From positions 310,001 to 374,000 of the forward strand of contig NZ_AP018724.1 in the NCBI RefSeq assembly GCF_004001245.1: 64,000 bases of DNA, written 5' to 3'. A program made the translations under genes and the position numbers. Positions 5,810 through 54,940 of this stretch are shown piece by piece (positions within the stretch are counted from its first letter, which is position 1; each line of letters starts with the position of its first letter). Under the pieces are notes generated by a model. That model searched no databases and was not told the DNA's origin. It saw only the letters and a program-made list of their open reading frames with translations. This DNA is from Sulfurivermis fontis. Its GTDB lineage: Bacteria; Pseudomonadota; Gammaproteobacteria; Thiohalomonadales; Thiohalomonadaceae.

Positions 5810-6186
5810 GGGGTCAGTGCCGCCTCCAGTTGCACCTCGCTCACCGGATAGATGAGCACCGCATGCAGCGGATGGATGGCGTTGAGCTTGTCGACGTGGG
5901 GCAGGTCGTCCTTGCCAGCCAGCACGATCACCCTGGCCTGCGGCGCGTGCTTCACCAGCGAGTGCAGCAGCACGTCGAGATTGCTGATGTTGGTGGCCTG
6001 GTAATAGGTGCTGAAGGCGTAGATGAAGTCGGCGATCACGAAGGCCGGCGGTTGTTTCTTCAGCGCGGCGAGTGCCTTGCGCTGGCTGTCGAAGCGCTGC
6101 TCGTCGAAGCCGAGGCGCTGATACAGCGCCGTGCAATTGGGGTGCTGCGGCGCCTCGACGATGGAATAGAGCAGGGGCGTGGTCAT
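5806..6186 (-). CDS. conserved hypothetical protein, possibly receiver-like (126 aa)
   Basis: Starts at ATG 6186, overlapping the upstream stop as ATGA. The alternation of beta-like and helical segments ([45 protein letters not shown]) resembles a response-regulator receiver fold, but the expected acidic pocket and phospho-aspartate are not evident. At best it is a degenerate receiver; the function is unknown. Confidence 0.7.
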
Positions 6187-6449
6187 GATGTCGGCATATC
6201 TTGCGCCAGGGCGAGTTTGGCGGCGCGGCTCAGCTTGCGGATAGCCGCCTCGCGTTTGCATGCATCGGAACGGCTGGCTGCCGGCTCGCAGTGCAGCAGC
6301 TTTACCGGACGGCGTGCGCGGGTATAGCGGGCACCGAGTTTGTCGTCGTTGTTGTGCTCATCGAGACGACGCGTCATGTCGGTGGTCACGCCGGTGTACA
6401 GCGTGTCGTCGGCGCAGCGCAGCAGGTAGACGAACCAGGTGTTGGGCAT
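6183..6449 (-). CDS. GIY-YIG nuclease superfamily protein (UPF0213/YhbQ-like)
   Basis: 88 aa, a single GIY-YIG domain. [20 protein letters not shown] (5-24) contains the YLL...YTG form of the GIY...YIG core, followed by the helix with R(R)LDEHN. The YhbQ-like members are small nucleases or nucleic-acid binding proteins of unclear biological role. It is first in the 6449-4806 set, and all three junctions are ATGA overlaps. Confidence 0.85.
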
Positions 6450-6479
6450 GATGGGGGGAGTATACCAATCCGGGGGGAT

Positions 6480-7253
6480 TGTTTTGGTGGGGATTCCGGC
6501 GCCTTACTCCGGTTGTGCGCGCTATCGCGCGGCTTGATTTTGGCGGGGGATTCCGTCCCCCTACGCCGGGTTACTTTTCTTTGCACGGCCAAAGAAAAGT
6601 AACCAAAAGAAAGGCCGCCCCGATGTCTCGCCGCTAGCGCGGTTCATTCGGCACATCCTTGTGCCTCACCCTTCGGGCAGCCTGCGGCTGTGCGAATCGG
6701 CTGTCCTGCCGATTCGTCCCTGCGCTACTCGCCCGGGACGGGTTTCTCCGACGGCACGTCCCTGTGCCGACGGAAGAATGCGCGCCCTCCCTGGCGCGCC
6801 CCCTGCGGGCCATTCCGCCCCGGGCTGCGTTGCTCGGCGAGACAAAGGGGTTGAACGTCAAAGACGGCTCGCCTCACGGCATCGTGCTGTGAGGTGTGCG
6901 CTATGCGCACACGGGTTTTGACTTTGGGGTTTTGATTTTGACTTTCGGTTTACCCCCCCGTCTGCCGCGCCGAGCATCGCAGCCCGAATCGGGGGAAGCC
7001 CGTAGGGGACATGCCAGGGATGGCATGTCCTCGCCTTCGCGCCAGGACGGCGCGTAGGCGAGCGCCGATTCGGGCGAGAAGCGCAGGGTACCCGCAGGGC
7101 GCGGCAATCGGGAGGCTTTTCTTTTCGTTAGTTTTCTTTGGCCGAACAAAGAAAAGTAACCCGCGCGCGGGGCGGCTCCCCGCACCAAAATCAATCCGCG
7201 CGACAGCGCGCACCAACCCGGGCTAGGGGGACGGAATCCCCCGCCAAAAAAAC
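6480..7253. repeat. non-coding inverted-repeat mosaic, two diverged head-to-head copies
   Basis: About 800 bases without a convincing gene. The left part (6482-6622) and the reverse complement of the right part (7105-7252) align over roughly 140 bases. Both contain GCGGGGGATTCCGTCCCCCT, a GCGCGC-TA/TG-TCGCGCGG hairpin and GGTTACTTTTCTTTG followed by GGCCAAAGAAAA. The interior is a chain of short hairpins (for example around 6651-6660, 6695-6717 and 6753-6773). A perfect palindrome GTGTGCGC-TAT-GCGCACAC lies at 6894-6912, near where the two halves meet, followed by TTTTGACTTT repeats. The ORFs in it are mirror reads of repeat and lack ribosome binding sites. Confidence 0.7.
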
Positions 7254-7255
7254 GA

Positions 7256-8848
7256 TCACTCGATCGCCTGACTGCGCAGGTAATCCTCATAGGTGCCACT
7301 GAAATCGACCACGCCATCGGGCGTCAATTCGATGATGCGCGTCGCCAGCGACGAGACGAACTCACGGTCGTGGCTGACGAAGATCAGGGTGCCGTCGTAG
7401 TTTTCCAGCGCCAGGTTGAGTGACTCGATGGACTCCATGTCCAGGTGATTGGTCGGCTCGTCCATCACCATGATGTTGGGCCGCTGCAGCATTAGTTTGC
7501 CGAACAGCATGCGGCCCTGCTCGCCGCCGGAAATCACCTTCACCGACTTGCCGATCTCGTCGTTGGAGAACAGCAGGCGGCCGAGGGTGCCGCGGATCAC
7601 CTGTTCATCGTCACCCGGCTTGCCCCAGTGGCCCATCCACTCGAACAGGGTCATGTCGTTGGCGAAGTCGGCAGCATGGTCCTGGGCGAAGTAGCCGATG
7701 CTGGCGTTCTCCGACCATTTGATCTCGCCGCGGTCGGCTGCGAGGTCTTTGACCAGGCAGCGCAGCAGGGTGGTCTTGCCGATGCCGTTGGGGCCGATGA
7801 TGGCGATGCGCTCGCCCACTTCCACCAGCAGGTTGAGATTGGCGAACAGCGGCTTGTCGCCGTAGCTCTTGGTGAGTCCTTCGACTTCGAGCACGTTGCG
7901 ATACAGCTTTTTCTCCTGGTTGAAGCGGATGAAGGGATTCTGCCGACTCGATGGCTTGACCTCCTCCAGCTTGATCTTGTCGATCTGGCGCGCGCGCGAG
8001 GTGGCCTGGCGCGACTTGGAGGCGTTGGCGGAGAAGCGGCTGACGAAGGACTGCAACTCGGCGATCTGCGCCTTCTTCTTAGCGTTGTCGGCCAGCAAGC
8101 GTTCACGGGCCTGGGTGGCGGCGGTCATGTAGTCGTCGTAGTTGCCCGGATAGACGCGCAGCTCGCCGTAGTCCAGGTCGGCCATGTGCGTACACACCGA
8201 ATTCAGGAAGTGGCGGTCATGGGAGATGATCACCATGGTGCTGTTGCGCGCGTTGAGTACATTCTCCAGCCAGCGGATGGTGTTGATGTCCAGGTTGTTG
8301 GTGGGTTCGTCGAGCAGCAGGATGTCCGGATCGGAGAACAGGGCCTGCGCCAGCAGCACGCGCAGCTTCCAGCCCGGTGCCACCGCACTCATCGGGCCGT
8401 AGTGTTGTTCGATGGGGATGCCGACACCAAGCAGCAGCTCGCCGGCACGCGCCTCGGCGGTATAGCCGTCGTACTCGGCGAACTGTACCTCGAGGTCGGC
8501 CACTTTCATGCCGTCCTCTTCGCTCATCTCCGGCAGGGCATAGATGCGGTCACGCTCGTGCTTCACCTGCCACAACTCGGTGTGGCCCATGATCACCGTA
8601 TCGAGCACCGAATATTCCTCGAAGGCGAACTGGTCCTGGCGCAGCTTGCCGAGGCGCTCGTTGGGGTCCAGGCTGACATTGCCGGCGGAAGGCTCCAGGT
8701 CGCCGCCGAGTATCTTCATCAGGGTCGACTTGCCGCAGCCGTTGGCGCCGATGAGGCCGTAGCGGTTGCCGTCGCCGAATTTGACGGAGATGTTTTCGAA
8801 CAGGGGTTTGGCCCCGAACTGCATGGTGATGTTGGCGGTGGTGAGCAC
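7256..8848 (-). CDS. ybiT: ABC-F family ATPase, YbiT-like
   Basis: 530 aa from GTG 8848; an ATG at 8881 would add 11 residues. I prefer GTG because the protein then begins [12 protein letters not shown] at the usual place and has the typical length of 530. It has two ABC cassettes in one chain with no membrane domain. Walker A GANGCGKS lies near 34-41 and GPNGIGKT near 350, with [11 protein letters not shown] and [10 protein letters not shown] Walker B motifs and a charged linker between. ABC-F proteins act on the ribosome, not in transport. It is separated from its neighbours by the repeat mosaic downstream and about 200 bases of non-coding DNA upstream. Confidence 0.92.
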
Positions 8849-9046
8849 GGCGGTGTTTCCAGTACGGTCGGACCAAAGCATCGGGCTGGCGCCGCAGGCG
8901 TCAGTGGGGCGAGGTCCGGGGATGCAAATTGATTTCCAGGTATCCGGCGGGCGGGAGAGCGTGCGCTGGAGCGGGCGCTATTGTCGCACAGACGCTGAGT
9001 GGCTGCACCCTGCGGCCAGTCCCGGCGACACACCGTTTTGGGAAAC

Positions 9047-43873: not shown

Positions 43874-44037
43874 GGAAGGTCTGAATAAGTCCATCCTGGA
43901 CTTTTCAGACCACGCCAAGCGAAAAGTGTGATTTTCGCTTGGCTTCATTTTTCAACGACTTATCGTCGTTGAAAAATGGCGGCACATCCCTGTGCCGCGG
44001 AAGCTCTGAACTTATTCAGAGCTTCCTCAGAGCTTCC
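43874..44037 (-). mobile_element. multi-hairpin MITE-like element, copy A
   Basis: Same element as copies B and C, in reverse orientation. It begins (plus strand) GGAAGGTCTGAATAAGT and ends with ACTTATTCAGAGCTTCC. An 11-bp end piece (GGAAGCTCTGA, minus strand) is duplicated. The flanks share TAA only. It fills the space between the convergent MFS and xthA genes and abuts the xthA stop codon. Confidence 0.85.
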
Positions 44038-47976: not shown

Positions 47977-48366
47977 CGGTTTCTCCTGCTGTATGGATTC
48001 TGGTCAACGGCGCGGGTACACGCCTGAGCAGGACAGAGCAAGGGGCGGGCCAGCCGCCGGGGAGGTGGCCGGATGGATGTTCAAGTCAATGAAAAGATGT
48101 GAATTATCGGTCGGCGCCGACGACCGTGCCGGGTATGCGCGGCGCGGGGGGCTGGGGCATTTCGCCCCAGTGAGGAAAAAGGGGTGGGGCAAAATGCCCC
48201 AGCCCTGTAACGGCTCACCCCTTAAAGTCAAAAGCCTTCAACGCAAAGACGCAAAGTGTGTGCAGTGTCGCGCAGCGTTGCGCGATTCCGCTGCGCCACA
48301 TCGCACAGCGGCGCTTCGCAGGGTTCCCCTTTGCGCTCTTCGCGTCCTTTGCGTCTTTGCGTTTAA
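47977..48366. other. sox upstream region with hairpins and CGCAAAGACGCAAAG inverted repeat
   Basis: No gene in this 390-base stretch. 48152-48170 (CTGGGGCATTTCGCCCCAG with a small bulge) and 48185-48201 (TGGGGCAAAATGCCCCA) are short stems, enclosed by AAGGGGTG / CACCCCTT. Then TTCAACGCAAAGACGCAAAG (48237-48256) is mirrored by CTTTGCGTCTTTGCGTTT (48347-48364), the familiar intergenic repeat of many proteobacteria. Copy B of the MITE sits at its right end. Confidence 0.6.
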
Positions 48367-48572
48367 GGAAGCTCTGAATAAGTTCAGAGCTTCCGCGGCA
48401 CAGGGATGTGCCGCCATTTTTCAACGACGATAAGTCGTTGAAAAATGAAGCCAAGCGAAAATCACACTTTTCGCTTGGCGTGGTTTTGTCCACGGATGGA
48501 CTTATGTCGCGCAGCCCAGGGAGGGGCGGGAGCGACCTGAAAAGTCCAGGATGGACTTATTCAGACCTTCCT
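48367..48572 (+). mobile_element. multi-hairpin MITE-like element, copy B (with 53-bp module)
   Basis: Ends GGAAGCTCTGAATAAGT and (mirrored) GGAAGGTCTGAATAAGT. It is flanked on both sides by TTAA (48363-48366 and 48573-48576). It is 206 bases, 53 longer than copy C; the extra part (about 48480-48534) is one unit of the tandem array at 57.9 kb. Five stems are present as in copy C. Confidence 0.88.
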
Positions 48573-48628
48573 TAACGCTTGTGTTTACGCCTTCCTGGGA
48601 GGGGCGGGTAGTCATTGCGCCATTCGGG

Positions 48629-54787: not shown

Positions 54788-54940
54788 GGAAGCTCTGAAT
54801 AAGTTCAGAGCTTCCGCGGCACAGGGATGTGCCGCCATTTTTCAACGACGATAAGTCGTTGAAAAATGAAGCCAAGCGAAAATCACACTTTTCGCTTGGC
54901 GTGGTCTGAAAAGTCCAGGATGGACTTATTCAGACCTTCC
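54788..54940 (+). mobile_element. multi-hairpin MITE-like element, copy C
   Basis: 153 bases, the cleanest copy. Terminal inverted repeats GGAAG(C/G)TCTGAATAAGT run inward from both ends; flanking direct repeat TTCA (54784-54787 and 54941-54944). Five hairpins in order: the 5' end itself (GAAGCTCTGAA..TTCAGAGCTTC), GCGGCACAGGGATGTGCCGC, TTTTTCAACGA..TCGTTGAAAAA, CCAAGCGAAAA..TTTTCGCTTGG, and GGTCTGAA..AAGTCC-AGGA-TGGACTT..TTCAGACC. No ORF. Confidence 0.9.

Follow-up and report, generated by a model that had tools for sequence, protein, structure and literature searches.

A dispersed two-unit intergenic repeat with pseudoknotted cores and a covarying third strand

Two diverged, inverted units of ~390 bp each occupy positions 6480-7253 of the window, the 64,000-nt stretch of Sulfurivermis fontis DNA analyzed here, and the core of each unit combines a hairpin, a pseudoknot and a purine tract that covaries with the hairpin. 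We tentatively favor the reading, to which we give somewhat less than an even chance, that the element works as folded single-stranded DNA, being a dispersed, probably non-autonomous, non-coding element of two units with triplex-pseudoknot cores. This reading is preferred to one in which the element works as RNA.

The whole space from a small GIY-YIG gene (6183-6449, minus strand) to an ABC-F ATPase gene (7256-8881, minus strand) is taken up by the element; genes around this and the other elements were called from open reading frames only. A first-pass annotation had described a head-to-head inverted repeat here, and pairwise alignment bears this out: the two halves, aligned in inverted orientation, scored 146, compared with 28 for the best same-size control window and a maximum of 28 for shuffles. 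The outer parts are ~80% alike over ~145 bp (6479-6620 vs 7110-7252). The motifs that had been named for the outer copies, GGTTACTTTTCTTTG and GGGGATTCCGTCCCCCT, are present in that region, as is the perfect 8+8 palindrome at the center. The interior had been called a chain of stems, and it does fold strongly, with z-scores against dinucleotide shuffles of -26 (plus-strand DNA), -27 (plus-strand RNA) and -17 (minus-strand RNA). The TTTTGACTTT runs, however, had been assigned to both halves and are instead adjacent; both belong to the linker of the right-hand unit (6916-6951). Linkers resembling this one also occur in distant copies, and the central hairpins correspond to the inner end of the single units at three other loci (L061, L062 and L066). 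Many copies skip the additional module of the left arm, the alignment passing from 6643 straight to 6718. This ~75-bp three-hairpin module with GGA loops, also seen at L063 (2417-2483), L265 and L271, was found within arms, at sites of its own elsewhere in the genome and, in other copies, within the core hairpin, and it seems to move on its own.

Table 1. Parts of the two-unit element, in window coordinates
Feature	Position	Strand	Remarks
Outer inverted repeat of left unit; GC-rich hairpins (GTGCGCGCTATCGCGC, GGGGGATTCCGTCCCCC)	6480..6568	+	~80% pairing with 7160-7252
Left-unit core	6571..6618	+	Covariation, alignment A2
Left core, hairpin	6571-6602		
Left core, mirror third-strand tract AAAAGAAA	6605-6612		
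Left core, pseudoknot tail GGCCG	from 6613		
Left arm: nested stems, mini-hairpins	6618..6850	+	Loops TCC on plus strand, GGA on minus strand
Additional ~75-bp three-hairpin module in left arm	6644..6717	+	Missing here in many copies
Two central hairpins, including GTGTGCGC-TAT-GCGCACAC at 6894-6912	6872..6912	.	
T-rich linker with TTTTGACTTT runs, inner side of right arm	6913..6953	.	
Right arm, diverged inverted copy of left arm	6955..7115	-	Inner arms 69% alike (6718-6850 vs 6957-7088); TCC loops on its sense strand
Right-unit core (hairpin, mirror tract, pseudoknot tail), reads inward	7112..7159	-	Alignment A2, row 2
Right outer inverted repeat	7160..7252	-	End adjoins ABC-F gene stop codon (7256)

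The core of a unit is built on the hairpin TTAC-TTTTCTTTG / CAAAGAAAA-GTAA, and base pairing of the hairpin loop with a tail further downstream makes it a pseudoknot. Its sequence is A/T-rich (TTTTCTTT..AAAGAAAA..AAAAGAAA), and the first loop has 8 nt (G-N6-C) in the fixed-length set A2. Cores were collected from genome contigs by a hairpin pattern scan, which returned at least 120 stretches, and were parsed so that the two directions of the palindrome were kept apart. The hairpin is conserved by construction in such a set, and the fair tests are the tail and the third strand only. For the 51 gapless cores, loop and tail, ~25 nt apart, form standard pairs in 93.6% of cells. Shuffling the partners lowers this value to 61%, and sliding them to 20-50%; double changes were found in all four pseudoknot pairs. 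Covariation supports the pseudoknot.

Between hairpin and tail lies a purine tract that repeats the hairpin's purine strand in mirror order: AAAGAAAA occurs with AAAAGAAA, AAAAGAAA with AAAGAAAA, and AAGAAAAA with AAAAAGAA. The mirror is exact in 111 of 140 cores, compared with a mean of 41 and a maximum of 57 after shuffling. The third-strand G and the C-G pair coincide in position in 117 of 119 cases (Fisher p about 1e-31), and the third base is G at 84/103 C-G levels vs 33/718 T-A levels; kinship of the sequences inflates these counts, which one-per-locus counts and the set of distant cores offset in part. The mirror was also seen in the other core-bearing genomes of the class sample and in two viral contigs, where the search pattern demanded an AAARRAAA tract and left its agreement with the hairpin free. 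Pairing between the two units fails to explain the mirror because the units of one pair mostly carry cores of different form (13 of 17 pairs, including window vs L060, L080 and L178), as if identical cores were avoided within an element.

On the sense strand the order is pyrimidine tract, purine tract and mirror purine tract, as in class II intrastrand triplexes, and a third strand lying antiparallel to the purine strand would be the purine-motif arrangement of that class. From the covariation we infer that the core can form such an intrastrand triplex, and its recurrence in several phyla suggests that evolution has kept the shape. The opposite strand has the arrangement of a pyrimidine-motif (class IV) triplex within an H-type pseudoknot, which resembles telomerase RNA. 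Triplexes of the purine motif are said to be possible in DNA but not in RNA; those of the pyrimidine motif can form in RNA (PMC4666352).

Among the matches listed, the hairpin is present in Proteobacteria, Desulfobacterota, Bacteroidota and Selenomonadales, with named records from Xanthomonas, Lysobacter, Dyella, Stutzerimonas, Dechloromonas, Thiobacillus, Burkholderia, Methylobacter and Pasteurellaceae. Outside Proteobacteria the hairpin and tract were seen, and complete two-unit elements were read in Proteobacteria only. Exact cores are patchy, occurring in 6 of 276 genomes of the class. Head-to-head pairs of the uptake sequence AAGTGCGGT are common in Pasteurellaceae, and in the copies from this family (L150, L178 and L203) one such inverted pair lies at the center, in the place of the window's central hairpins.

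The genome-wide search that the annotation had called for revealed a dispersed repeat: by sequence search, on which all copy counts rest, the 3.25-Mb genome has about a dozen sites with pairs or single units. Most sites have two inward-facing units, and some have a single unit (L059, L061, L062 and L066). In the genus as a whole, 19 of 20 pairs of neighboring units face inward; together with the single units, this bears out the annotation's view of two ~390-bp copies meeting tail to tail. Because the sequence is dispersed, the element is not just one inverted duplication at this locus. Copies are also carried by related species of the genus, with the most in G004, and the elements sit in intergenic DNA at loci common to several species, so that recent jumping is not seen. 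Around the copies, the orientation of flanking genes is unbiased, with no preference for read-through, which argues against a 3´-UTR or terminator role.

Comparison between species revealed both loss and rearrangement. In genome G002 the element is missing at one orthologous locus (L259) with the flanking genes intact, and the G002 counterpart of L060 (L261) is reduced to outer part, hairpin, outer part, as if the interior between the two hairpins had gone. Compared with its flanks, the interior has the opposite orientation in G004 at both the window and L060 loci and in G001 and G002 at the L067 locus, with weak inversion at the L065 locus, and single units were inverted at no locus compared. 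The simple reading is that recombination between the inverted units accounts for these inversions; independent insertions in either orientation would be the alternative. In G001, the intergenic gap that corresponds to the window's (L257, ~1260-1500) holds a different palindromic insert, made of GTGCGCACCCTAC repeats, and the gap thus attracts structured repeats.

A coding origin was rejected, as open reading frames across the element gave no convincing Pfam or NCBIfam match. A phage or plasmid origin was rejected, with no phage matches, two stretches in 2.9 million viral contigs and only short core matches in plasmids. A RAYT/Y1 transposase partner was likewise rejected, Y1 being present in 11/12 genomes with the core and 11/12 without. 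Genes between distant units are mixed and unrelated, with no transposase among them, so a composite transposon with common cargo does not fit either, and neither the Y1 comparison nor these genes yielded a gene that mobilizes the element. At L065 (2821-3749), a nucleotidyltransferase-domain gene and a MUG113/T5orf172 gene lie between two inward-facing units and are possibly remnants of toxin-antitoxin or defense cargo. The genome also has a second dispersed repeat of ~212 bp with ends GGAAGCTCTGAA and about 40 near-identical copies, found in the window at 48363-48575 and near 43914-44026 and 54788-54900; at L064 one copy, bordered by CTAA at either end, lies within a unit of the main element. 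This repeat looks like an IS5-type MITE. Beside the element at L068 is a ~988-bp sequence (G000:C1:2591999-2592988) that recurs at ten other places; the 11 copies have 99-100% identity, and it is probably a recently active insertion sequence.

The arms of the units are of two kinds. In arms of the window type, the mini-hairpin loops on the unit-sense strand are TCC rather than GGA at ratios of 91:5 in the genus and 87:7 in distant units, compared with 34:27 in background blocks, and the TCC-type loops sit on 28 (genus) and 50 (distant) different stems. Loops of the form CANGGATG fall on the antisense vs sense strand of the unit at 50:2 in the genus and 48:1 in distant units, giving several ANGGA hairpin loops on one strand, as in CsrA/RsmA sponge RNAs. 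The consensus sites are A/UCANGGANGU/A for RsmE and RUACARGGAUGU for CsrA; the CANGGATG motif fits the RsmA/CsrA consensus, and the genome has one CsrA gene. The second kind of arm has long stems, with pairing far above that of shuffled partners, and a conserved apex, AACTCG-hairpin-CTCARACA, found in 27 instances vs 1 in shuffled sequence. No Rfam family was above threshold in the window, where the matches were weak only: one to the RsmV clan on the minus strand, and one to RF02421 (Bp1_684) at 17.4 bits against a gathering threshold of 44. In a Burkholderia locus (L167), RF02421 was above threshold, with two matches that cover the outer part of both units on the outward strand. RF02421 is a Burkholderia sRNA candidate detected by RT-PCR.

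These features make an RNA element a serious rival, even if we regard it as unlikely. Outward transcripts, antisense to the units, would carry CsrA/RsmA-type hairpins and, at their 3´ side, a pyrimidine-motif (U.A-U, C+.G-C) triple-helix pseudoknot; they might act as a CsrA sponge or a stabilized RNA end, and the inverted pair would serve transcription from either side. The nearly exclusive placement of the CANGGATG loops on the antisense strand, repeated on so many different stems, argues for it and counts against the single-stranded DNA reading, since a pure DNA role leaves such strand-specific loops unexplained. The CsrA gene, the weak RsmV-clan match and the RF02421 matches on the outward strand of L167 point the same way, as does the lean of arm mismatches to A-C on the sense strand (49 vs 33). 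Pseudoknot wobbles, however, lean the other way (6 vs 3), and the choice of strand from G-U vs A-C counts is not decisive. The arms of many distant copies have no GGA loops, and the flanking genes show no read-through preference. The structured-RNA function suggested in the first-pass annotation could hold insofar as the pseudoknot covaries and the arm loops fit the consensus. None of the results points to the nucleoid binding that it also suggested, and it had overlooked the pseudoknot and its covarying third strand, the wide range of the element and the inversions.

Two further rivals are less probable. A structural intergenic repeat with no mobility of its own, such as a terminator, a nucleoid or gyrase site or a BIME-like sequence spread and kept by gene conversion, would account for the intergenic position, the strong folding and the loci common to several species, but we consider it improbable given the random flanking orientation, the absence of a T-run terminator and a role that requires neither pseudoknot nor covarying third strand. 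An ordinary MITE, with outer inverted ends that a transposase recognizes in double-stranded form and an inner structure carried along as passenger sequence, has slightly poorer prospects still: the inverted ends, the lack of coding capacity, the many copies and the one empty site agree with it, but no target duplication was seen at that site (L259, the sole one compared), no parent transposon turned up in the Y1 comparison or among the genes between distant units, and conservation falls on the pseudoknot core rather than on the extreme ends. The single-stranded DNA reading is favored by the polarity of the purine motif, the presence of a core on each strand, the random flanking orientation, and inversion and loss between species. 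Besides the arm loops, the lack of a target duplication at L259, the lack of a mobilizing gene, the sharing of positions between species and the patchy occurrence of cores count against it.

According to the single-stranded DNA reading, the core on one strand would fold into the hairpin pseudoknot, and the purine tract would lie along the hairpin as its third strand, so that the pseudoknot would lock in place an intrastrand triplex of class II (purine motif). The inverted arrangement of the units gives each DNA strand one core. The element would act while DNA is single-stranded, on the lagging strand or in intermediates of transformation or recombination, and the folded core would be recognized by a trans-acting protein encoded elsewhere; spread could occur as a non-autonomous mobile element or through recombination and transformation. 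A bolder version, possible but held with less confidence, is that the element is structured mobile or selfish DNA across several phyla, its triplex-pseudoknot ends kept by selection and recognized as folded single strands by a putative enzyme.

Intrastrand triplex repeats in bacterial intergenic DNA are already known. The PIT, BoxC and TM_ECO repeats likewise have a pyrimidine, a purine and a second purine tract on one strand (class II; PMC4666352), and the PIT/BoxC repeats, those of E. coli among them, are also dispersed through intergenic DNA, have a patchy distribution in Proteobacteria, occur at times as inverted pairs and are tied to local rearrangement, with no mobilizing gene found. TM_ECO, however, is G/C-rich (CCCTCNCCC..) where the element is A/T-rich, and the core does not match the BoxC/TM_ECO pattern CCCTCNCCC N3-6 GGGNGAGGG N3 GGGNGAGGG (PMC4666352). 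Its 8-nt first loop also exceeds the loops of 1-6 nt in the ITxF search of PIT repeats (PMC4666352). Unlike PIT/BoxC, the core is locked by a covarying pseudoknot, is found at the ends of arm-bearing units of ~390 bp, and has a hairpin that also occurs outside Proteobacteria. RF02421 covers only the outer ~110 nt of the units, not core or arms. REP/BIME sequences are likewise dispersed intergenic palindromes in inverted arrangement, but they are 20-40 bp long and RAYT-linked, whereas the ~390-bp units have no Y1 association. CsrB and RsmX-Y-Z-V sponge RNAs share the several ANGGA-loop hairpins, as well as the weak minus-strand RsmV match, and differ from the element in that it has many copies per genome, inverted pairs and distant copies with no GGA loops. 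MITEs share inverted ends, many copies and the lack of coding capacity; the conserved pseudoknot core sets the element apart from them, as does the failure to find parent transposon or target duplication. A search of the literature by motif and topic, with subscription journals mostly outside it, found no earlier description of the element beyond the triplex-repeat paper. The papers searched describe neither the A/T-rich core with its pseudoknot nor the architecture of two units with arms, nor do they report the covarying third strand or the range over several phyla.

Potential triplex repeats in bacteria have been known for decades, and whether the third strand matters in cells is a long-standing question. 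Here a third strand covaries with its duplex in distant bacteria, alongside a covarying pseudoknot, which makes the question testable. The element also offers a natural example of intergenic segments whose orientation switches from one species to another, and its reading frames may explain spurious short protein calls. If the triplex reading is true, the covarying third strand would be evolutionary evidence for intrastrand triplexes in living bacteria.
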